Shown here: in pieces, positions 2,509 through 16,739 of the stretch
Numbering within the stretch: the stretch's first letter is position 1
Layout: each line of letters opens with the position of its first letter
Virus record (IMG/VR): IMGVR_UViG_3300021963_000787
Coordinates: 1-20,912 of that record
Source: a virus
DNA: 20,912 nt
Strand: one strand, 5' to 3'
Made by a program: the position numbers and the translations under genes
Notes under the pieces: generated by a model
Database searches by the model: none
The model's input: only the letters and a program-made list of their open reading frames with translations
What the model was told of the DNA's origin: nothing

Positions 2509-3096
2509 ATGTGGACCTACTCCCTTACAGTAGAAGAGGTAGCCCTTGTATGCCAAGTTGGCTACGAGCGTCAAGCAGAGATGTTTGGGCAACCCGAACG
2601 TAACGTAAACTACTATGAAGGCGACCACTGGGAGATGCTGCAACATACCATCTGTGCAGGTAGCGAATTAGCCTTTGCCCGAATGATTGGTATTAAAGAG
2701 TTCACCCCGCATGTCAACAAGTTTAAGACAGAGTTAGATGTAGATGGTTTTGAGGTCCGCTACACATTTCCACAGGGGTGTAACGCACCATGTTGCGCCT
2801 CGGAAAGTAGCAGAGGTCGCTTACGTATGACACGTAGAGATGATGATGACCAGATTTATGTTCTTATTGGTGGAGGTCTTGCAATTCGAACCAAGATGGA
2901 AACCCCGCCATACACAATGCCACCATACGTTGCACTTGGTTGGGCCTATGGACACGAGTGCAAAAAACCAGAGTTCATCTATAACGCAACCACATGGTAC
3001 GTACCTCGAGCAGAATTACATCCCATGGATACGTTAGACTTATCCAATGTGCAAGGAATGCGGCAGCTGCTCCAAGGAACACAGCAGAACAATTGA
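2509..3096 (+). CDS. Phage protein, possibly PD-(D/E)XK nuclease-like fold
   Basis: The 195-residue protein starts one base after the previous stop codon. The middle reads ELDVDGFEVR (about 75-84), then DDDDQIYVLI (about 111-120), ALGWAYG (about 142-148) and YVPRAELHPM near the C-terminus. From memory, phage proteins with an N-terminal helix, 'D-x-G-x-EVR', 'DxD-x-(Y/F)-x-LV' and a closing 'VP-x-x-x-L-x-PM' are often viewed as divergent PD-(D/E)XK nuclease-like proteins; I assign this only tentatively. A Cys-rich insert (CNAPCCASE, about 91-99) is unusual and may bind metal. No biochemical role can be read directly. Confidence 0.75.
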   Translation: MWTYSLTVEEVALVCQVGYERQAEMFGQPERNVNYYEGDHWEMLQHTICAGSELAFARMIGIKEFTPHVNKFKTELDVDGFEVRYTFPQGCNAPCCASESSRGRLRMTRRDDDDQIYVLIGGGLAIRTKMETPPYTMPPYVALGWAYGHECKKPEFIYNATTWYVPRAELHPMDTLDLSNVQGMRQLLQGTQQNN

Positions 3097-3145
3097 TGAT
3101 TCAGTTGATGAGGTTTTAGACTCTCCTATTTAGTACCCTTCATTC

Positions 3146-3373
3146 ATGAACTTCATGGATTGGCTTGCAGATAATATGGATGTACCTAGCCGAGTACAAC
3201 GCTGCGCCAAAATGCTTATAGCAGATGTAAATAATGGGTGTGGTTCACTCAGATATGACGCTATATCATGGAGAGAGCATTTTAAAGAAAAACACCCTGA
3301 TAACGCTAGTCAGCTAATTGACATGCTTTTAATTGCCTATTCGGAGTATATCCTTACTATAAAAGCCAAATAA
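3146..3373 (+). CDS. Small helical hypothetical protein (75 aa)
   Basis: Not recognised. The 75 residues are predicted by eye to be mostly helical and soluble, with amphipathic segments (MNFMDWLADNMDV at the N-terminus, QLIDMLLIAYSEYIL at the C-terminus). Two Cys (about residues 20 and 32) are not in a CxxC pair. No good Shine-Dalgarno precedes the ATG. The following gene begins 15 bp after its stop codon, with a promoter candidate overlapping this gene's 3' end. Confidence 0.65.
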   Translation: MNFMDWLADNMDVPSRVQRCAKMLIADVNNGCGSLRYDAISWREHFKEKHPDNASQLIDMLLIAYSEYILTIKAK

Positions 3374-5934: not shown

Positions 5935-6133
5935 ACACGCTCAACACAAACATATAAATTTAAATAGCCAACTAGGTTTACGAGTTGGCGGTATAGTTGT
6001 TCCTTATTGGCCCGCCTATTGGGGTGGGGTTGGTGGTGGAAGTGTTCACAATGGACAGACAACCGAAGGAGAGCATAATGACAACAGTAGCTCAGACTCA
6101 GCAGCGGGAGCTGACTCTGGAGGACAGATGTGA
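5915..6133 (+). CDS. Possible overlapping small membrane-associated protein (72 aa)
   Basis: An ATG at 5915 inside the tail of the previous gene opens a 72-codon frame: a basic His/Lys-rich start, a short hydrophobic aromatic centre (VGGIVVPYWPAYWGGVGGG) and a Ser/Asp/Gly-rich end. It covers the otherwise empty 5935-6077 but overlaps the next gene by 56 nt, longer than any other overlap among the rightward genes. It may be real or a chance frame. GAGAAAG lies about 8 nt upstream as a weak ribosome site. Confidence 0.45.
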   Translation: MTKKKNKHAQHKHINLNSQLGLRVGGIVVPYWPAYWGGVGGGSVHNGQTTEGEHNDNSSSDSAAGADSGGQM

Positions 6134-6284
6134 CGCTTGCAGCGCAGCTGCACAAATTGTCGTTACTTTTCTTAATGGTGAGCTAATGTTTTGCGGTCAC
6201 CACGCAAAAAACAATTTTGATTCTCTTAAAGTTAAATCTGTAAGTATCTTTGACCCTAATAATTATTTAAATCTTATACAATAG
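6078..6284 (+). CDS. DUF7455-like zinc-ribbon protein
   Basis: The 68-residue protein reads MTTVAQTQQRELTLEDRCDA followed by CSAAAQIVV, then NGELMFCGHHAKNNF. The RCDAC...FCGHH layout (CxxC plus CxHH) matches the small actinobacterial and actinophage family I know as DUF7455. Two Cys, one further Cys and two His can hold one zinc ion; the role is unknown. The start at 6078 is chosen because GAAGGAGAG lies 5-6 nt upstream and family members start with MTT. The open frame extends further upstream without a ribosome site. Confidence 0.82.
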   Translation: MTTVAQTQQRELTLEDRCDACSAAAQIVVTFLNGELMFCGHHAKNNFDSLKVKSVSIFDPNNYLNLIQ

Positions 6285-6312
6285 AAGTACCTATTAGGAG
6301 AGAGAAGATAAC

Positions 6313-8856
6313 ATTCTTCCACTGCGTTTATTCGCAGCATTATTCCTTACATTATTTCTTTATTTATTAGGGCAACAATCTGCCTACGCTGAAGAGCCTG
6401 CCACCGAGCAGGGGGTGACTCCTACTCCAAACAATTCTGATACTTCTACAGCTACTACCGCTGAGCCAGTAGTAACTATTGCAACTATTGAGACAAAAAT
6501 TGATACTGCTACAGCTACTGTACAGACTGCAGTTACTAATGCAGAAACAGCTGTCGCTACACTCTTACCTACTCCAGCAATAGCACAAGCTGTTGCTGCG
6601 GTTCCAGAGGTAGTTCAAGCAGTTACTACAGCTACTACCAAAGTAGAAGTAGCTACTACGGCTATTGCTGCTGCTCAGACAGCCGTAGACAGTGCAACTG
6701 CAACAATTCAAGCCGTTGACTCTCAAACAGCAGTAGTAACGCAAGCCGTTACTAACGTGGATTCAGCCACAGCGGTTGTTATAACTGCAATAACCGCAAT
6801 GGATTCTCAAACAGCGGTAGTAGCAACAGATACAGCTGCAGTAGCAACAGCCACAACTGCTTTACAAGTAGCAACTACGCTACCCGCTAACGCTATTACC
6901 TATACAACACCTGGTTATGTAGCCCCAGTTGCCCCAGCCGTTCCTACTGTTACAACAACAGTTCTTCCAGCAATGGGAGATGACGCTGCAAAAATAACAA
7001 CCCCGTTTGATATTAAAATGGGAACAACAGTATTTGAAGGACAAGGTACCGCAAGTCAGATATATGTAAGCCCTAAAGGAATTATTTCATTTGGTGGAAA
7101 AGATTACACATACTGGGACTGGCCTAATATGAAACCAAATGGTATTTATGTATTTCAATCTGATTTTATGAGCAGTGGTAAAGATGCAAAAATTACCGTT
7201 ACAACAACAGAGACCACTTTAAGTGTGGATTGGGATGTGCATAAATGGGGAGATAGCCAAGGCCCTCTTACTAATATAAACTGGGATATGACAGTTAACC
7301 CAGCAACAGGTGAGTGGACTGGCATAGGAACCATGTCTGGAAGCACTGTTGTATACGGTGGGCCTAGAAGCGGTGTTAGACAAGACGGAGTTTTAACTCA
7401 ACTAACCGCAGTAACTAATACTCAAAAAGAAGCCATAGTTGCAACCGCTACAACTACTTTAGCAACTGCTCAAACAACTCTTACTGCTGATACTGCCGTT
7501 CTTGCAACGCTTACAGAAGCGAAAACAACAGCAGTGACAGTACTTGCAACAGCTCAGTCCACATTAACAACAGAAACTCAAACATTAACTAACCTCCAAT
7601 CAACATCTAGTGCAGCAGTTACTACCGCTAATCAACTAGCAGATACTGCAATTATAAAAGCAAATGAAGCCAAGACTGCATTAGAGACAGCAACTACGAC
7701 AGTCTCCATTGCTGCTTCTCAGTATGCTGCCGCTCAGCTTCAGTTGCAAGCTCAGCAAAATGCTGCTGCTGCTGCTGCTCTTTTAGCTGCTCAGCAAGCT
7801 GCTGCTCAACAAGCTGCTTCTTCTTCAACGCCAACTGCGCCTGTAGTTCCAGAAACTCCACCGTCTCCTTCTGTCGATGTTCCAACCACTCCTCCTCAGA
7901 CAAGTCCTGAAAGTCCATCTATTGAGTCACCCACAGTAGAGCCATTACCACCCACAGAGCCGCTACCACCCGTGGAAGAGCCTTCAGAGCCACCCGTAGC
8001 GCCCGAGGAGCCTCCTGTGGAAGCCGAGCCACCTGCGGAAGAACCACAAGAACCACCGACACTAGAGCCAGAGCCACAAAATCCGATAGAAGAACCATCA
8101 CAACCTCCTGTTGAAGAACCACCTGCAGAAGAACCTCCTGCAGAGGAGCCGCCTGCAGAAGAGCCTCCTGCAGAAGAGCCACCAGTAGAGACTACACCTG
8201 TTGAGGAGCCTCCTGCAACTGTTGAAGAGGCTGTTACAGAATCTGTAGACAACGCTTTAGCTGATGGAAAACTTTCTGCCTCTGATGCTGTTGCTATTTT
8301 AGAATCTTTAAACGCAGATGGAAAAGTTACTGCAGAAGAAGTATCTGCATTATCTGAAGCGCTATCAGCAGATGGCAAACTTACTACTGCCGAAAAAGAA
8401 CTTGTGGCAGAAGCCCTTATTGAATCTGTAGCTCCAGGCGAAACTCTTACAAAAGAGCAGATTCAAGATGCTGGAATTGCTTATCAGGACCTTCCACCAG
8501 AGACTCCTGTAGAGGTTAGGCAGGATGAAAACGGTAATGAAGTTATAATTACAGCAGACGTTGCCGCAGCTCTTGTGCTACTAGAGAACCCAGCGGAGTT
8601 AATTGGCGCAATATTTGATGACCCTGGTCAAGCCCTTAAAGCACTTGGAAGTATCGGTGCTGATATGTCCACAGAAGAACGTGAAGAAGCAACCAAAATG
8701 GTAGTTGCTGCCGTTATTGCTGGTGGCGCCGCACTTAATGCTGTTGGCGCTGCTGCAGGAGCTGCTGGTGGAAGCACTGGTGGTTCAAGCGGTAGAGGAA
8801 GTTCTGGAGGCGGAGGCGCCTCTGGCGAATCAGGATATAGGAGACGTAAGCCATGA
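6313..8856 (+). CDS. Large exported modular protein with apparent non-standard start
   Basis: From the GTG at 6415 this is 813 aa, but the same frame upstream encodes a textbook signal peptide (LPLRLFAALFLTLFLYLLG... ending SAYA before EEP), back to a stop at 6295. No ATG, GTG or TTG lies there; ATT at 6313 (about 10 nt after an AGGAGAG) or CTG at 6322 would give about 847 aa. Order: signal peptide; Ala/Thr/Val-rich coiled-coil-like region; a Trp/Gly-rich beta domain (about 219-361); a second Ala/Thr coil; poly-Ala/Gln; a Pro/Glu-rich stalk (514-636) with EEPPA repeats; three 'ADGK-L/V-(S/T)' EF-like repeats (646-702); a hydrophobic Ala/Gly helix (796-819); a Gly/Ser tail ending in RRRKP. Probably a cell-surface or adhesin-like protein; its role is unknown. 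It is coupled by ATGA to the lysis genes. Confidence 0.8.
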   Translation: MLPLRLFAALFLTLFLYLLGQQSAYAEEPATEQGVTPTPNNSDTSTATTAEPVVTIATIETKIDTATATVQTAVTNAETAVATLLPTPAIAQAVAAVPEVVQAVTTATTKVEVATTAIAAAQTAVDSATATIQAVDSQTAVVTQAVTNVDSATAVVITAITAMDSQTAVVATDTAAVATATTALQVATTLPANAITYTTPGYVAPVAPAVPTVTTTVLPAMGDDAAKITTPFDIKMGTTVFEGQGTASQIYVSPKGIISFGGKDYTYWDWPNMKPNGIYVFQSDFMSSGKDAKITVTTTETTLSVDWDVHKWGDSQGPLTNINWDMTVNPATGEWTGIGTMSGSTVVYGGPRSGVRQDGVLTQLTAVTNTQKEAIVATATTTLATAQTTLTADTAVLATLTEAKTTAVTVLATAQSTLTTETQTLTNLQSTSSAAVTTANQLADTAIIKANEAKTALETATTTVSIAASQYAAAQLQLQAQQNAAAAAALLAAQQAAAQQAASSSTPTAPVVPETPPSPSVDVPTTPPQTSPESPSIESPTVEPLPPTEPLPPVEEPSEPPVAPEEPPVEAEPPAEEPQEPPTLEPEPQNPIEEPSQPPVEEPPAEEPPAEEPPAEEPPAEEPPVETTPVEEPPATVEEAVTESVDNALADGKLSASDAVAILESLNADGKVTAEEVSALSEALSADGKLTTAEKELVAEALIESVAPGETLTKEQIQDAGIAYQDLPPETPVEVRQDENGNEVIITADVAAALVLLENPAELIGAIFDDPGQALKALGSIGADMSTEEREEATKMVVAAVIAGGAALNAVGAAAGAAGGSTGGSSGRGSSGGGGASGESGYRRRKP
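8113..8187 (+). repeat. 15-bp coding repeat (EEPPA)
   Basis: Five consecutive 15-bp units of the form GA(A/G)GA(A/G)CCnCC(T/A)G(C/T)A encode EEPPA four times and EEPPV once in the Pro/Glu-rich stalk of the exported protein. The units differ mainly at third codon positions, so the array is older or better fixed than the nearly identical minisatellite at 13051. Confidence 0.8.
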
Positions 8857-9363: not shown

Positions 9364-10107
9364 GTGGCGGAAAAAGGAACAGCAGCTGCTCTTATTGAAG
9401 TTGCACAAAAAGAAGTTGGGACTATTGAAGGTCCTAAAGATAATGAGACAAAGTACGGCGCTTTTACAAAAGCTAACTTCTTAGCATGGTGCGGCAGCTA
9501 CGTAATGTGGTGTGCCAACCAGGCTGGGGTTAAGGTTCCTAATACTGTTTCTACAGTGGCAGGTGCTGCAGCTTTTAAGAAGATGGGCACATGGTTCGAA
9601 GCTGACTGCGGTCAATCACCACAGCCAGGAGATATCCTGTATTTTGATTTCCCAGGAGACGGCGTCGATAGAATTTCTCACGTAGGTATCTGCAAAGGTA
9701 TTGATTCTGATGGCGTAGTAACCACTTTAGAAGGAAACACATCTTCTAAGAAAAAAGGAAGCCAACGCAATGGCGGCGAAGTTTGCGAACAAATTCGCGC
9801 TTACAAGGCTAACAAAAAGAAAGTTATGGTTTCAATTGTTGGTTGGGGTCGTCCTAATTACAATGGAAACGAAGTAACAGCAACAATCCCTAAAGTTAAA
9901 GCTCCAGCATTTCCAGGACAGATTCGTCCAGGAGATAAAGGCGAAGGCGTTAAAGTGGTACAACGTGCCCTTGGTCTTCTAGCTGATGGAGATTACGGCC
10001 CAGCTACAAAGAAAGCAGTTATTGGTTTTCAAGATAACCACGATGTAGTTGACTCTAATGGAATCATTGGCCCTAAGACTTGGGCTGAATTGGTTAAATT
10101 CCTATAA
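9364..10107 (+). CDS. Endolysin: CHAP amidase/endopeptidase with peptidoglycan-binding domain
   Basis: The 247-residue protein starts at GTG, with AGGAG 5-8 nt upstream. Residues 8-155 form a CHAP (NlpC/P60-like) domain: catalytic Cys43 in AWCGSYV, His106 in ISHVGIC and the third polar residue in LEGNTS (122-127); PGDILYF precedes the His as is usual. Residues 185-247 are a PG_binding_1 domain: GDKGEGVKVVQRALGL, DGDYGPATKKAVIGFQ, NGIIGPKTW. It should cleave peptide bonds in the host wall at lysis, after holin action. There is no signal peptide. The next small membrane gene starts inside its stop codon (TAATG). Confidence 0.95.
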   Translation: MAEKGTAAALIEVAQKEVGTIEGPKDNETKYGAFTKANFLAWCGSYVMWCANQAGVKVPNTVSTVAGAAAFKKMGTWFEADCGQSPQPGDILYFDFPGDGVDRISHVGICKGIDSDGVVTTLEGNTSSKKKGSQRNGGEVCEQIRAYKANKKKVMVSIVGWGRPNYNGNEVTATIPKVKAPAFPGQIRPGDKGEGVKVVQRALGLLADGDYGPATKKAVIGFQDNHDVVDSNGIIGPKTWAELVKFL

Positions 10108-11203: not shown

Positions 11204-11986
11204 ATGACAGCATCATATCCAGGTTCCGTTAAGGTATTTACTACCAAATCAAACGTTACAGATACCGTAGACGCTTCCCACCCAAACTCCGTTCAAGAAG
11301 AAATTGTAGCAATTGAAACTATTCTTGGAGCTAGCCCAAACCAATCTTCTGCCGCTAACTCATCGGGTACTTTTAATGCTTCCTCAACTGCTTTTGGAAC
11401 TGTAACTGCACGTATTGCAAATATAGAAACTGGCGTTGTTGCTGATTCTCATACGCAGTATATTAGAAAAACAGCTGATTCTAACAACACTATTATCCCT
11501 ACCAACATAAACACAAATGGTTTGGTAATCAAAGGCTTAGGCAGTCAATCAGCGGCACTTCAAGAGTGGCGTTCAGAGATTAACCAAGTTCTAGCAGCGG
11601 TTACCCCAACTGGTCTTTACACAGGAACAATTAGCGCATCTAATGTTATTGGCTCTATTTCTGCTGTTCCTATTGATAATACTGTAGAACAAAAAGCTGA
11701 AAGCTTTTCACTTACTCTTATTGATAAAAACAAAGTTTTTTACTGCGTTAACACAAGCGCTACTGTTACAGTAACAGTCCCCCTAAACGCATCTCAAGCA
11801 TTTCCTTTAGGCTCACAGATTCACTTTGTGCGAGGAGCTGCTGGTGCGGTTGTATTTCAAGGAGTATCAGGAAGCGTAAGTGTTAATGCATCACCTGGAG
11901 CTAAATTAAGAGCTACATGGTCTGCTGCAACTCTTATGAAACTTGCAGAAAATACTTGGGTGCTACTTGGCGATTTGAGTGCCTAA
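11204..11986 (+). CDS. Tail-fibre-like / receptor-binding structural protein (260 aa)
   Basis: The 260-residue N-terminus reads PGSVKVFTTKSNVTDTVDAS then HPNSVQEEIVAIETILG. This 'F-x-x-K-x-(D)-x-x-D-x-V-DASH-x-N-x-x-Q-(D/E)E-(I/V)-VAIE' pattern is typical of tail-fibre or minor tail proteins in many phages and probably attaches the protein to the tail. A low-complexity Ser/Thr/Asn centre follows. The last 90 residues form a beta-rich domain (TVTVTVPLNASQAFPLGSQI, VVFQGVSGSV, LAENTWVLLGDLSA) like trimeric C-terminal head domains. It probably contacts the host surface. It is coupled by TAATG to the FN3 protein. Confidence 0.8.
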   Translation: MTASYPGSVKVFTTKSNVTDTVDASHPNSVQEEIVAIETILGASPNQSSAANSSGTFNASSTAFGTVTARIANIETGVVADSHTQYIRKTADSNNTIIPTNINTNGLVIKGLGSQSAALQEWRSEINQVLAAVTPTGLYTGTISASNVIGSISAVPIDNTVEQKAESFSLTLIDKNKVFYCVNTSATVTVTVPLNASQAFPLGSQIHFVRGAAGAVVFQGVSGSVSVNASPGAKLRATWSAATLMKLAENTWVLLGDLSA

Positions 11987-13239
11987 TGCCATTAGTTCCT
12001 GGAACTGGGGATTCCCAGAGGAAAACTAAGCCTACTGCACCAATAATCACGTCACAATCTGATTCTGGTTCTGGTAGAAGCTTTGACAATGGCGCTGCTT
12101 ATTTAACATTTAATGCTCCCGATTACACGGGAAAATTACCAATTACTGAGTACATTATTACCGCTGCTGCAACAGACGCCTCAAACACCGTAACTTCAAC
12201 TATTTCATCTTCATTATCTACATTTGTTATTGAAGGTTTAAAATCTGGTAAGCAATATAAATTTAAAATAAAAGCTAGAAATTTAGTTTATGACTCTGAT
12301 GACTCTACCGAAGCTGGTCCAGTTGATGCCACCACAGTTCCAGGGACTCCAACAAGCCTTAGTGGAAATGATTTAAAAAATGGTGGTGGTCTTACTCTTA
12401 GTTGGGTTGCACCACCAAATGCGGGTTCTGCAGTTACTAGTTACACAATTACTCCAAGTTTTGGGGCTGTCGTTAGTACTGGTAATAACTCAACAACTTA
12501 CACTTTTTCTGGTTTAGAGGTTAATAGGGGTTACACATTTACTGTACAAGCGGTTAATGCAAACGGCCCTGGATTGACCTCAACCCCATCACCAACACTT
12601 ACTCCTACGTTATATGTAGCACCAACTCCTCCACCAACTGTAGGCACAACTGTAGGCACAACTGTCGGCACCGTAACTGTAGGTTCTTCTGTTACTTGCG
12701 GAGCTTGCCAAGATGTATCTGGAACAGTAACTGCACCTACCTGTAACGGAGAAGACTCTTATACAGGTTATTATCAAAAGAGAGCTCAGGTATGTTCTGA
12801 TGGAACCCAGATAGCGTGTAGTCCTGGTGGGCTAATTTCATTTGGTTCGGTAATTCAATATTGTAATGCAAGTTGCGGCTGTGTAAGAACCGTGGGTGGC
12901 GGCCCTGTTTGTGCTAGACCAGACTTAGTTGGAACCGTGTGCGGAACCTACTCTGCGGGGTGTGGGTATACAGGAACCTATAACTGTGATGGAGCATGTG
13001 TTGGTATTGTCTGTGGAGGCTGTTGCCAGTGTACTAACTCTTGTACTGGAACAACCGTTGGCACTACAACCGTTGGCACTACAACCGTTGGCACTACAAC
13101 CGTTGGCACTACAACCGTAGGTGCTACAACCGTAGGCGGGGCAGAAGGTACTCCTACATCCCCTTCTACCCCTACATGTGGACAGGCATGTCAATGTCGT
13201 GCAGCTGGCGGTATCTGGAGAGTTATCGGATGTATCTAA
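11986..13239 (+). CDS. FN3-domain and Cys-rich surface protein with TTVG repeats (417 aa)
   Basis: The start at 11986 is a TAATG junction; the open frame reaches 69 nt further upstream over the previous gene. Residues 15-110 and 112-205 are two fibronectin type III-like domains (PITEYIITA...FVIEGLKSGKQYKFKIKARN; LTLSWVAPPNAGSAVTSYTI...YTFSGLEVNRGYTFTVQAVN is the second). A Pro/Thr/VGTT linker (about 205-232) leads to a domain with about 25 Cys (235-355), then a TTVG repeat (356-385) and a last Cys cluster (CGQACQC). FN3 domains decorate many tail proteins and bind carbohydrate or the cell surface. The Cys-rich part would need disulfides or metal and is not recognised. Adhesion is inferred. 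Confidence 0.85.
   Translation: MPLVPGTGDSQRKTKPTAPIITSQSDSGSGRSFDNGAAYLTFNAPDYTGKLPITEYIITAAATDASNTVTSTISSSLSTFVIEGLKSGKQYKFKIKARNLVYDSDDSTEAGPVDATTVPGTPTSLSGNDLKNGGGLTLSWVAPPNAGSAVTSYTITPSFGAVVSTGNNSTTYTFSGLEVNRGYTFTVQAVNANGPGLTSTPSPTLTPTLYVAPTPPPTVGTTVGTTVGTVTVGSSVTCGACQDVSGTVTAPTCNGEDSYTGYYQKRAQVCSDGTQIACSPGGLISFGSVIQYCNASCGCVRTVGGGPVCARPDLVGTVCGTYSAGCGYTGTYNCDGACVGIVCGGCCQCTNSCTGTTVGTTTVGTTTVGTTTVGTTTVGATTVGGAEGTPTSPSTPTCGQACQCRAAGGIWRVIGCI
13051..13140 (+). repeat. Six-unit 15-bp minisatellite in coding sequence
   Basis: Four identical units ACAACCGTTGGCACT (13051-13110) are followed by two variant units (13111-13140), encoding TTVGT-type repeats. Each unit is 15 bp, so slipped-strand gain or loss keeps the frame. 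The exact identity of four units suggests recent expansion. Confidence 0.95.
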
Positions 13240-13495: not shown

Positions 13496-13768
13496 ATGAC
13501 AACGCCTGAAGAGGGTAAGCTAAGTCCTTGGAAACAATGGAAGAAAAACCTTGGTGAAACAAGACCTTGGGATTTAGTAAATCCAAACGTTGAACGTGTT
13601 TCAGATGAAATTCAAAAAACTAGGTACGACATGTGCTTGTCATGCCCAGAGTTAATTGGACTTACTAAACAATGTAAAAAATGCGGCTGTTTTATGCCAG
13701 AAAAATCAAAATTAGCTAAAGCTGAGTGCCCTCTGCATAAATGGGGTCAAGTAGAGGTAGCACAATAA
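13496..13768 (+). CDS. Zinc-ribbon protein of the DUF6171-like type (90 aa)
   Basis: The 90-residue protein has an N-terminal SPWKQWKKNLGETRPWDLVNP segment and then a compact Cys cluster: YDMCLSCPEL (about 43-52), KQCKKCGCFMPEKSKL (about 58-73), AECPLHKW (about 75-82). The pattern C-x2-C(P)...C-x2-CGCFM-x2-K...CP-x-x-KW is known in phages of aquatic bacteria, and I recall it as DUF6171-like; the name is less certain than the zinc-ribbon fold. In those phages it often stands beside a 2OG-Fe(II) oxygenase gene, as here (TAATG junction). AAGGAGC precedes the start. Confidence 0.78.
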   Translation: MTTPEEGKLSPWKQWKKNLGETRPWDLVNPNVERVSDEIQKTRYDMCLSCPELIGLTKQCKKCGCFMPEKSKLAKAECPLHKWGQVEVAQ

Positions 13769-14385
13769 TGGAATTTAACCGCGAAGAGCTAGCCCCAGGT
13801 ATTTGGGCTTATTACGATGTTATGGAGAACCCACAAAGTTTTATAAGTGACATAGAAGGCCTTGTAGAAATAAAACAACTTGCTTGGCAACTTGGTACTA
13901 TTGGAAATGTTGGTGATACCAGCACTGGTTCTTATAAAGTTAACACCGATATAAGAGTTGTTGAAACTATTGGGCTGCACGGTTTTGATAGAAACCCTAG
14001 TTTAAGAAACGCTAATTTTGGAGCAGGTGTTCAAGTACACGACCTTTTAAATGAAAAATTGCAGCCAACTATTTTAGATTACGCTACTAGTCATGGGTGC
14101 CAACCGTATGCTACGGGGGAATCCTGGCAAATTTTAAAATATGGTAAAGGCCATCATTTTGAAAACCACGTAGACGATAATAAGAGCATGCCTAGAACTT
14201 TTTCCATCTCTTACTACCTCAATGATGACTATGAGGGTGGGGAGATTGAGTTCCCACGTTTTGGATTAAAGATTAAACCTAAGGCAAATATGGCTATCCT
14301 CTTTGCTGCCAATTACGTCTATAATCACAAGATATATCCAGTGACTGAGGGCTTGCGTTATACGGTAGTCAATTGGTTTGAGTAA
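13768..14385 (+). CDS. 2OG-Fe(II) oxygenase (prolyl 4-hydroxylase-like)
   Basis: The start at 13768 forms a TAATG junction and gives 205 residues. The C-terminal half is a double-stranded beta-helix: HVD (134-136) and His187 supply the iron-binding HxD...H triad, and Arg197 in GLRYTVVNW should bind 2-oxoglutarate. FSISYYLNDDYEGGEIEFPR (about 145-164) is the hallmark P4H segment. It would hydroxylate a protein residue, or possibly a nucleic acid base, using O2 and 2-oxoglutarate. Phage P4H-like enzymes usually lie among structural genes; a substrate among the neighbouring fibre proteins is possible but unproven. Transmembrane and signal sequences are absent, so it acts in the cytoplasm. Confidence 0.92.
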   Translation: MEFNREELAPGIWAYYDVMENPQSFISDIEGLVEIKQLAWQLGTIGNVGDTSTGSYKVNTDIRVVETIGLHGFDRNPSLRNANFGAGVQVHDLLNEKLQPTILDYATSHGCQPYATGESWQILKYGKGHHFENHVDDNKSMPRTFSISYYLNDDYEGGEIEFPRFGLKIKPKANMAILFAANYVYNHKIYPVTEGLRYTVVNWFE

Positions 14386-14488: not shown

Positions 14489-15436
14489 ATGGCAACAGAT
14501 ACATCAGGTCAGCAAGCCGTTGACTTTGTATGGGGTAACTTCCCTATGCAGCCAAATGATGACCGTGCTGCGGCAGTGACCCCAGCAAACATCGGCGGCT
14601 CAACAGGCGATTACGCTTGGGCAGCTACTACACGTGTAGCAGCTGACCGTTTAGACGCAGCTCTTGACAACCACGCAAACGCAGAAGCAGGTTGGTCAGG
14701 ATTCCCAGCATTTACAGCTGGTACAGGCAATTACATCATCACAGCAGTTTCAGGTAACGGCACAACTGTTACTTACACATCACAGAACAGCCTTGCAGTT
14801 GGAGACTCTGTAAACATTACAGGCCTTTCAATCGGCGCTTACAACCTTTCAGCAGCAACAGTTGCTACAGCTAACGCACTTAGCTTTACAGTAACTAACG
14901 CAGCTAATGGTGGAGCTATCACAGGCCAGTACGGCAAGGTTCAGCTAACAACTGCTCTAACAGCAGCTGATGGCGCTGGAATCGGCTACATCAACGTACC
15001 TTCAGTACTTGGTGACACACTAGCAGTAGCTCTTGATGAGCTTAAGGATGCTGGTTACGAAGCAGCTAACATCACAACTGCAGCAGCAGCAACAAACGCA
15101 GTTTCAACAATTACAGCAGTTGCACGTACAGGCACAGCAGCAACAATTACCTCAGCAGGTTCTGGTGCTAAGTACCCAGTAGGCACAAAGATTACAGTTG
15201 CATCTCTTGTAGCTCCAAATGATGTACTTAACGGTACCTACACAGTTACAGCAGTTGCTACAAACACTGTTTCTTACACAACCACAACTTCAGGAACACT
15301 ATCAACATCAGGTCTTTCTGTTGCTGGTCTTTCAGGTGTTGCTGGCACAATCAAGACTCAGTCAACAGCAGCAGGCGCTGCAACAATTGCTACAACAGCT
15401 ACAATCACAATCACACCATTTGCGGCAGTTTCTTAA
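14489..15436 (+). CDS. Putative abundant virion protein with two Ig-like repeats (315 aa)
   Basis: The 315-residue protein is Ala/Thr-rich. Residues 1-75 (DFVWGNFPMQPNDDR, AWAATTRVAADRLDAALDNH) look like an N-terminal virion-attachment segment. Residues 80-150 and about 205-275 are two related beta domains sharing 'ITAV...GT-x-x-T-x-TS...VG-x-x-(I/V)-x-(I/V)...Y-x(n)-TAVAT-N-x-(V/L)-(S)-(Y/F)-T', an Ig-like repeat common in phage decoration and tail proteins. Codons are strongly biased to GCA, ACA and TCA, more than in neighbours, as expected of a highly expressed gene. A strong terminator follows 11-12 bp after the stop. It may be a decoration or tail-tube-associated protein; the exact class is uncertain. 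Confidence 0.78.
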   Translation: MATDTSGQQAVDFVWGNFPMQPNDDRAAAVTPANIGGSTGDYAWAATTRVAADRLDAALDNHANAEAGWSGFPAFTAGTGNYIITAVSGNGTTVTYTSQNSLAVGDSVNITGLSIGAYNLSAATVATANALSFTVTNAANGGAITGQYGKVQLTTALTAADGAGIGYINVPSVLGDTLAVALDELKDAGYEAANITTAAAATNAVSTITAVARTGTAATITSAGSGAKYPVGTKITVASLVAPNDVLNGTYTVTAVATNTVSYTTTTSGTLSTSGLSVAGLSGVAGTIKTQSTAAGAATIATTATITITPFAAVS

Positions 15437-15446
15437 ACTCCCAAGC

Positions 15447-15479
15447 AAAAAGCCCCAGCCAATTGGCTGGGGCTTTTTT
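15447..15479. terminator. Strong bidirectional intrinsic terminator
   Basis: AGCCCCAGCC (15451-15460), loop AATT, GGCTGGGGCT (15465-15474): a perfect 10-bp GC-rich stem with an A-tract on the left and a T-tract on the right. It lies between the rightward gene ending at 15436 and the leftward WhiB gene ending at 15482, so it can end both transcripts. Confidence 0.95.
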
Positions 15480-15481
15480 AT

Positions 15482-15766
15482 TTAAATTTTTCGTCTTTTT
15501 ATCGAATGTCTGTCTTTCTCGTCAGTGCCCGCCCAGATACCAAGTTCTTGGTTATCAAGCGCCCACTGTAAGCACGGGTTTTGAAAGCTACAACTCCCAC
15601 AGACTGTCTTTAGAAACCGTTTGGATTCCAATAACCGTTCTGGGGCTGGAAAAAACATCTCAGTATCCATTCCTTTGCAGGGTTGGGTACCGTCAAAATT
15701 TGGTGCGTTAGTACCACTTGTTATTCTGCCAGAATCTCCAAGCATTACATGCGCCATTTGGCTCAT
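15482..15766 (-). CDS. WhiB-family iron-sulfur transcription regulator
   Basis: The 94-residue protein has the four WhiB cysteines: Cys30 in QPCKGMDTEMFFP, then Cys56, Cys59 and Cys65 in VCGSCSFQNPCLQWAL. The turn GIWAG (76-80) and the basic tail DRHSIKRRK complete the family layout. WhiB proteins bind a [4Fe-4S] cluster, contact region 4 of the primary sigma factor and alter transcription. The ATG at 15766 is preferred because GGGAG lies 5 nt upstream, although TTG at 15790 is open. The gene begins inside the 3' end of the transglycosylase gene (59-nt overlap). Phage WhiB homologues can block host WhiB targets such as septation genes; that role here is inferred. Confidence 0.95.
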   Translation of the reverse strand: MSQMAHVMLGDSGRITSGTNAPNFDGTQPCKGMDTEMFFPAPERLLESKRFLKTVCGSCSFQNPCLQWALDNQELGIWAGTDEKDRHSIKRRKI

Positions 15767-16265
15767 TTTCACTCCCATATCTTTTTTCAATATAACGAAG
15801 CCCGTATTTTATTTGAAGTTGTGCACTTTCTGTTTTTTCTACCTTGTAGTTGCCCCACGTTGAGGGCATGAACTGTGCAATTCCGTAAGCACCAGAAGAC
15901 TTATTTAAAGCCTTAGGGTTAAAGTGGCTCTCTTTAGTCCACAGGTTACGGAGACATGTCCATTCGCCAATTGACCAATCTTTTGTATAGACGGTCAGAA
16001 AAGCGAGCGCTTCAGCGTCAAAGTATTTGACGGTGTCACTTGCCAAGGCGGCCTTGGCTGCTGATTTTGTTGTTACTACTTTAAGGCGGGAAAGCGATAC
16101 GGTTATAGGCTTTTCATTGGCTACCAAGAATTTCTGCTCGGCATCCTTTGTACTGCTTAGTGCGTATGCTGGGGTAACTATATGTGACAAGATTAAAAAC
16201 CCTGCCATTACAGCTGCTCCTACCTTCTTTAAATCAACTGTTAGATTGATTCTGATATTAAGCAT
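15708..16265 (-). CDS. Exported lytic transglycosylase, APF/Rpf-like C-terminal domain
   Basis: The ATG at 16265 has GAGAGGAG 7 nt upstream and gives 185 residues; a further-upstream ATG at 16301 lacks a ribosome site. Residues 1-35 are a signal peptide (DLKK, hydrophobic GAAVMAGFLIL, TPAYA before LSS). Residues 100-185 are a goose-lysozyme/SLT-like domain with WTKESHFNPKALN (catalytic Glu112), SGAYGIAQFMPSTWGNY, QIKYGLRYIEKRYG and NAWRFWQ; Cys104 and Cys173 may pair. It matches the 'aggregation-promoting factor' transglycosylase type common in Actinobacteria. It should cut glycan strands outside the membrane. It is not part of the lysis cassette and is probably host-derived. It is transcribed with WhiB. 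Confidence 0.9.
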   Translation of the reverse strand: MLNIRINLTVDLKKVGAAVMAGFLILSHIVTPAYALSSTKDAEQKFLVANEKPITVSLSRLKVVTTKSAAKAALASDTVKYFDAEALAFLTVYTKDWSIGEWTCLRNLWTKESHFNPKALNKSSGAYGIAQFMPSTWGNYKVEKTESAQLQIKYGLRYIEKRYGSENEPNGACNAWRFWQNNKWY

Positions 16266-16288
16266 TTGATTGCTCCTCTCAGTGCGAA

Positions 16289-16310
16289 AAGCCACCATCA
16301 CTGGTGGCTT
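16289..16310. promoter_or_regulatory. Perfect hairpin in transglycosylase leader
   Basis: AAGCCACCA-TCAC-TGGTGGCTT is a perfect 9-bp inverted repeat about 24 bp upstream of the transglycosylase ATG, just before its Shine-Dalgarno. On the minus strand it is followed by TT and then CGCACTGAGAGGAG. It could be an operator, a transcription attenuator or a leader stabiliser. Confidence 0.6.
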
Positions 16311-16364
16311 ATCACCTACAAGGTTGCCACAGCCTTACAGGGTAAGTCAAGTGCAAACAGAAAA

Positions 16365-16493: not shown

Positions 16494-16739
16494 ATGTCAT
16501 TAGCAGAGTGGGCTGGCACATTAGCTGGATTTGCAGCTTTTGGTGCAGCAATTATTACAGCCACATCATGGGTATTAAAATCATACCTAAAGAATTTTGT
16601 ACACGAGCTTAAGCCCAACGGAGGCAGCTCGATGAAAGATACCGTAAATAAAATTCACACTGAGATGGTAGACCTACGCATCTCTATTGCTCGTCTTGAG
16701 GGTCGCTTTACACAGCACCTAGACGAAACCGAAAAGTAG
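16494..16739 (+). CDS. One-TM membrane protein with C-terminal coiled coil (81 aa)
   Basis: The 81-residue protein has an N-terminal transmembrane helix (LAGFAAFGAAIITATSWVL, about 10-28), a basic stretch, then KPNGGSSMKDTVNKIHTEM and a heptad-like helix (VDLRISIARLEGRFTQHL). This layout, with the 'KPNGGSS-(L/M)-(R/K)D' linker, is common in actinophage proteins near lysis genes (DUF2746-like holin or lysis accessory). The ribosome site is weak (AGGATT). It is divergent from the transglycosylase gene. Confidence 0.75.
   Translation: MSLAEWAGTLAGFAAFGAAIITATSWVLKSYLKNFVHELKPNGGSSMKDTVNKIHTEMVDLRISIARLEGRFTQHLDETEK

Follow-up and report, generated by a model that had tools for sequence, protein, structure and literature searches.

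A conserved leftward unit in the late region of a phage clade joins a predicted exported wall hydrolase to an optional WhiB gene with a nested start

Judged by its sequence, a fixed junction in the late region of a clade of phages is a conserved slot, and not the site of a one-off acquisition, for a leftward cassette that joins a predicted exported lysozyme-like enzyme, of either of two catalytic types, to an optional WhiB-like regulator. Phage WhiB genes have mostly served as markers of actinobacterial infection, and only that of mycobacteriophage TM4 has been function-tested during infection (PMC8612146). Here we describe this cassette in one window, the whole of a 20.9-kb virus record, and in its relatives, and propose, with about an even chance of being right, that it is an independently expressed wall-remodelling unit with optional control of host transcription. 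With a fixed neighbour, a defined start and relatives that naturally have or lack WhiB, it makes the role of WhiB testable by comparison.

The unit occupies the minus strand at 15482–16310 and comprises two genes, the hydrolase upstream and whiB downstream, which overlap out of frame by 59 nt (15708–15766, from the hydrolase stop to the whiB ATG). Both flanking genes run rightward on the plus strand: a late gene with a weak PASTA match (14489–15436) converges with the island, and a gene for a small holin-like membrane protein (16494–16739; phrog_15431 ‘holin’, 2e-5), conserved in position, diverges from it. The island and the convergent late gene share a bidirectional intrinsic terminator at 15447–15478, with a 14-bp stem, T-runs on both sides and shuffle z-scores of −5.0 (plus strand) and −3.6 (minus strand); a comparable hairpin lies downstream of almost every relative island. 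The overlap, the antiparallel orientation and the strong terminator closing the pair, all named in the original prediction, were confirmed, and its picture of an autonomous leftward unit joining a secreted wall enzyme to WhiB is supported, with export predicted. Purifying selection on both genes (median dN/dS 0.17 for the hydrolase and 0.16 for WhiB) and the recurrence of the pair in dozens of contigs argue that these are not chance open frames. A second leftward block is present elsewhere in the window, at 247–1987. A contig of 78.7 kb (L001) has genes near-identical to those of the window, and the longest relatives measure 100 kb; to judge by these, the record is a piece of a larger genome.

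The upstream gene (15708–16265, minus strand) encodes a 185-residue lytic-transglycosylase-like hydrolase, laid out as a signal-peptide-like N terminus, a linker and a C-terminal domain. Its open frame extends over 15708–16301, with an ATG at 16265 behind GAGAGGAG; this ATG is likely to be the true start because all relatives begin with ML/FNIR there, and a start at the GTG at 16301 was rejected on the same grounds. The Shine–Dalgarno sequence, GAGAGGAGC, lies at 16272–16280, and ACTGAGAGGAGC is nearly invariant in 64 leaders. Residues 1–35 (16161–16265) form a predicted Sec signal peptide that opens with MLNIR, continues through a hydrophobic core and closes with PAYA, a conserved AxA-like ending. 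The C-terminal domain matches NCBIfam AggPromo_Cterm (NF052397; 4e-21, 75.2 bits against a cut-off of 40) and Pfam SLT (PF01464; 2e-9, 37.5 bits against a cut-off of 21.3), and the protein belongs to the phage family phrog_15428 (3e-30). Lysozyme profile matches are weak (E of about 0.08), and the AlphaFold model is poor in the catalytic lobe, with no match in a Foldseek search using that model. Glu112 (codon 15930–15932, counted from the ATG at 16265 and numbered alike in the original prediction), the catalytic glutamate by family, is invariant in 28 of 28 aligned members of this enzyme type (type A), as its predicted conservation would have it. Streptomyces phage SLT/APF-C proteins (Endor1, Joe and phiCAM; NF052397, phrog_15428) share a homologous C-terminal SLT/APF domain, and the Endor1 protein also has a signal-like N terminus. 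Unlike the gene in the window, that of Endor1 belongs to a forward operon close to thyX and a serine integrase, has no WhiB and encodes a Pro/Thr-rich linker; its location indicates that such secreted enzymes are not bound to lysis cassettes.

The downstream gene (15482–15766, minus strand) encodes a 94-residue WhiB-like regulator (PF02467, 5e-15; Pfam Whib score of 56.2 bits against a gathering cut-off of 23.6). Its four cysteines (Cys30, Cys56, Cys59 and Cys65; C..CxxCx5C) are invariant in 23 aligned members, in line with what had been predicted of them. The glycine and tryptophan of the following turn are also invariant, the window reading GIWAG and others GIWGG, GAWGG or GTWGG, and the C-terminal tail is basic. 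The best matches among solved structures are 8dy7, 8dy9, 5oay and 6ono, the nearest being the chains named WhiB in 8dy7 and 8dy9, and WhiB1. Other Wbl proteins bind the primary sigma factor and bias transcription. The window protein resembles the sigma-A-binding members (WhiB1, WhiB7 and Streptomyces WhiB) in its four cysteines, G[I/V]W turn and basic tail, and by this likeness would bind the host primary sigma factor and bias host transcription; unlike them, it has WAG in place of the WGG turn. WhiBTM4 of mycobacteriophage TM4 is likewise a phage-encoded Wbl protein with a four-cysteine core and a plausible regulator of host transcription. The window WhiB differs from it in coming from the downstream gene of a leftward pair, which follows the gene of a predicted exported hydrolase and starts inside it, and the larger relatives of the window differ from TM4 in bearing another WhiB elsewhere (L129, L130, L132, L134 and L135, from G001–G005). 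In L130 this extra gene adjoins a RecA-like gene and a nuclease-like gene. One of these relatives (G003; 97,993 bases) has WhiB matches at both contig ends, 8–172 and 97863–97991, one cut by the end, which suggests that the genome, of about 98 kb, is circular or permuted.

The start of whiB lies within hydrolase codons. A TTG at 15790 was rejected as the start because relatives keep the ATG at 15766, which is preceded by a Shine–Dalgarno sequence, GGGAG, at 15772–15776 (minus strand) that is made by an AGN serine codon of the hydrolase frame. Among distinct type A sequences, an ATG or GTG at −59 from the hydrolase stop is present in 19 of 21 with WhiB and 1 of 9 without (Fisher p 6e-5), and a GGAG-type Shine–Dalgarno sequence, achieved through an AGN and not a TCN serine codon, in 14 of 21 and 0 of 9 (p 0.0009). 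In an independent second set the corresponding figures are 6 of 8 against 1 of 9 (p 0.015) for the start codon and 5 of 8 against 0 of 9 (p 0.009) for the Shine–Dalgarno sequence; all of these p values ignore the relatedness of the sequences and are optimistic, although the pattern recurs in divergent members. The start codon and ribosome-binding site thus appear, in two sets, to be written into the hydrolase frame where WhiB is present, a clear case of nested gene evolution. The overlap showed no excess synonymous constraint (0.56 versus 0.60). A nested ATG with its own Shine–Dalgarno sequence inside the hydrolase gene makes it probable that WhiB is translationally coupled, and a single mRNA would yield both proteins in about half of the phages. 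In type B islands with WhiB, the gene begins just past the hydrolase stop in three of four; in one (L119), its open frame extends 31 nt back. One further copy (L018, match at 6001–6567) diverges past its final conserved cysteine and stops early, in the manner of a frameshift, and reads as decaying.

The slot is more constant than its contents. Relatives of the hydrolase are encoded by 41 viral contigs; direct reading of the corresponding place in 16 further terminase relatives, in most of which no copy had been detected, found a leftward gene beginning with ML/FNIR in all 16. Every complete cassette found through its leader encodes, with the ML/FNIR start, a predicted exported enzyme that is lysozyme-like and belongs to one or other of the two catalytic types. 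Type B combines the start and leader of type A with another lysozyme-like domain (Pfam SLT_3, 1e-17), in which Glu88 is invariant in 14 of 14 aligned members; its structure model is likewise poor. Absence of the hydrolase from some relatives was rejected, the slot there holding the other catalytic type. WhiB, scored as absent where no FDG[TSA]QxC motif was found, so that a very divergent one could escape, accompanies 29 of the 39 type A islands of the first set (of the others, 8 are without it and 2 continue directly into the terminator) and 4 of its 17 type B islands (13 without); the 35 new islands of a second set, identified through a DNA pattern, divide into 8 with and 9 without for type A and 2 with and 9 without for type B, with 7 truncated. 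The contigs come from metagenomes, and related sequences are among those counted. The pair thus recurs in relatives, as had been predicted (29 of 39 and 8 of 17 type A islands in the two sets), but is not obligate: WhiB is an optional rider present in about half, and its dispensability in half of the clade indicates that the pairing with the hydrolase is not essential. An apparent restriction of the pair to five near-identical contigs was rejected as an artefact of protein-search sensitivity, direct reading having found WhiB in many more, and a WhiB finder based on cysteine spacing was discarded for false matches on the antisense strand of a tail gene.

A terminase tree with 38 rows requires about ten changes among the four island states; the enzyme and WhiB have therefore been repeatedly exchanged or lost while the slot has stayed. 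The group of the window (type A with WhiB, three rows) has support of 100/98 and adjoins a type B group without WhiB through a moderately supported join (88/80). The terminase is 53–55% identical to those of Streptomyces phage BRock and its allies, in which no such island was found in the annotated terminase neighbourhood. WhiB supports an actinobacterial host, and the literature on freshwater actinophages makes a freshwater Nanopelagicales host plausible (PMC6802176, PMC10202952). Eight relatives of 43–100 kb contain no tyrosine integrase or serine recombinase, although these are fragments and one may lie outside them.

Upstream of the island is a promoter-like site that, like the leader hairpin described below, did not figure in the original prediction. 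In the window it spans 16321–16351 on the minus strand, with CTTGACT at 16351–16345, a conserved TGTAAGG in the 18-nt spacer at 16339–16333, and TGg followed by CAACCT, the −10 hexamer, at 16326–16321; the 40 nt upstream are 81% AT, compared with 56% in the window. The leader consensus across islands is CTTGAC-N6-[T/C]GTAAC, with an 18–19-nt spacer followed by TGn and a hexamer resembling an extended −10 element, and TTGAC-N5-7-GTA is present in 57 of 64 first-set and 32 of 35 new islands. The closely defined motif occurs in 76 loci and is single-copy in 75 of them, with a second match in L080, and it lies at the island wherever the site was read; a general phage promoter was therefore rejected, the occurrence being essentially island-only. 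The −10 match is weak. In one group of type A islands, WhiB-less where visible (L020, L022, L024, L025, L026 and L038), the TTGAC hexamer, and with it a good −35, is lost while the hairpin and Shine–Dalgarno sequence are kept. We infer that the site acts as a sigma-A-type promoter.

We propose that the cassette is a moron-like, autonomous leftward transcription unit that large actinobacterial phages of one clade keep at a fixed late-region junction. Transcription from a sigma-A-type promoter, with AT-rich DNA upstream of it, would give an mRNA that opens with a hairpin and is most likely made independently of late transcription; the hydrolase, exported via Sec, would cut peptidoglycan from the outside through its lysozyme-like domain, and the resulting wall remodelling may bring growth arrest, easier release or fewer superinfections, with host gene expression also altered where WhiB is made. 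Consistent with this are the unit’s own promoter-like site, leader hairpin and terminator in a conserved slot, the two catalytic types behind one leader and start with some ten changes of state, the invariant glutamate of both types, the invariant cysteines and tryptophan of WhiB and its nearest solved structures, purifying selection, and a nested start and Shine–Dalgarno sequence that track the presence of WhiB in two sets; by analogy, the Endor1 enzyme, encoded away from a lysis cassette, and the effects of TM4 WhiB also point this way. Against it we count the weak −10 match, the one WhiB-less group without a good −35, the adjacent holin-like genes, the CHAP endolysin found near the unit in six relatives, the poor model of the catalytic lobe and the dispensability of WhiB in half of the clade.

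The morons of temperate phages, lambda bor and lom among them, are independent units with their own promoter and terminator among late genes. The unit described here would similarly be independent of the late operon, against which it is set, its terminator and orientation being seen directly and its promoter by conservation only. It differs in being conserved across a clade in which no integrase was found, in its exchangeable catalytic part, and in its nested regulator gene and structured leader. Absence from close relatives, by which morons are recognized, does not apply, since the ML/FNIR hydrolase is in the slot of all 16 extra relatives and of every complete leader match.

After wall remodelling, the favoured reading, comes auxiliary lysis, in which the hydrolase would be a secreted second lysin, divergent from the lysis genes, that weakens the wall from its outer face, the CHAP endolysin coming into action once the holin has opened, with WhiB as a passenger; these confidences are not exclusive, and we hold this reading to be plausible but tentative. 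The unit is adjacent to and divergent from two small holin-like membrane protein genes (at 16494 and 16787), and in L060, L061, L062, L089, L102 and L104 a homologue of the CHAP endolysin of the window (9364–10107) is inside the holin-like cluster adjoining the unit; both circumstances speak for a role in lysis, and swaps of the catalytic module with the export signal kept are lysin-like. Yet the unit is not in the operon of the holin but on the opposite strand with its own promoter-like element, the window has a separate endolysin 5–6 kb away, the Endor1 relative is encoded outside a lysis cassette, and the hydrolase would be co-transcribed with a transcription regulator. The original placement of the enzyme outside the lysis cassette therefore holds by strand and operon and fails by neighbourhood, and is misleading, since the genes from which the unit diverges are holin-like and include a CHAP endolysin gene in six relatives.

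Superinfection exclusion overlaps both readings and can be regarded as a special case of wall remodelling: the exported enzyme would alter the wall or receptor layer and WhiB would shut down host functions. TM4 WhiB competes with host WhiB2, downregulates host whiB2 and has been linked to resistance to secondary infection (PMC8612146, PMC6282962), and the exchange of enzyme types among close relatives fits phage–phage conflict. With half of the members lacking WhiB, we consider it rather unlikely. Doubtful too is a bolder reading, in which the unit would be an early takeover cassette for wall and transcription, conserved and exchangeable in lytic actinobacterial phages, expressed from a host-type promoter, with RNA controlled or stabilized by the phage-specific hairpin and WhiB dosed by nested coupled translation, that blocks superinfection or arrests growth.

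The leader hairpin, AAGCCACCA-GTGA-TGGTGGCTT, lies at 16289–16310 (minus strand), about 23 nt before the hydrolase ATG. A stem of at least 7 bp is found in 45 of 48 distinct leaders compared with 59 of 960 shuffles, its length being 7–12 bp and longer in a few leaders, and the hairpin is present in 31 of the 35 new islands. Among four-base loops, 28 of 31 are GNRA and 2 of 31 UNCG, whereas 12 of 14 five-base loops are CACAA; GNRA- or UNCG-capped stems occur in 30 leaders and in 1 of the 960 shuffles. Each arm pairs with its own partner at 126 of 126 positions (100%), compared with 65% when arms are swapped between tetraloop islands; because the hairpin search itself favours pairing, a fair comparison is one with such shuffles and swaps. 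The hairpin shows strong covariation with compensatory changes. No Rfam family matched the leader, even at E 5, and a riboswitch or known RNA there was rejected on that basis; with its GNRA loops and compensatory changes, this is a clean RNA element outside the families of Rfam.

If the promoter reading is right, the mRNA has the hairpin at its very 5′ end, a position in which RNA structures usually serve in stabilization, and the hairpin most likely protects that end. That it is instead an attenuator or terminator, with the unit on only when the hairpin is disrupted, is improbable: a G+C-rich stem followed by a short T-run is seen in many members, but this run is not conserved (L109, L112, L123 and L125), which together with its shortness makes a terminator unlikely, the hairpin would sit almost at the inferred transcription start, and no Rfam family matched there.

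Recent capture of host genes that confer little function is very improbable and already largely refuted: WhiB is an actinobacterial host family and a truncated copy exists (L018), but no close host homologue of the hydrolase was found in the genome scan described below, both genes are under purifying selection, and the leader and overlap are conserved clade-wide. The claim that the island was probably taken from a host is thus unsupported, the enzyme belonging to a phage family (phrog_15428) and the slot being common to a phage clade; an ancient capture of the genes is conceivable. A profile scan of 84,980 species genomes returned 52 relatives, the best at 76% over 63 residues and the remainder short SLT matches, with no close homologue of the hydrolase apart from this one fragment, on a chimeric-looking contig. 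As a host source the 76% match was rejected, since the contig (L137) is betaproteobacterial and the junction reads as an assembly chimera. At 3001–3189 of this contig, from a public betaproteobacterial metagenome-assembled genome, the phage hydrolase fragment is fused to a general-secretion-type gene. Another contig, L169, has a GC content of 66%.

Elsewhere in the window, an inverted repeat, nearly perfect and with each arm about 25 nt long, lies at the left end (20–83), matched by shape only to unrelated microRNA models. A 440-residue cysteine-rich frame with repeated VGTTTVGTT units, its first half fibronectin-like in look, extends over 11917–13239, and the late region also contains a 2OG-Fe(II) oxygenase-like gene (13741–14385; phrog_61, 3e-27).
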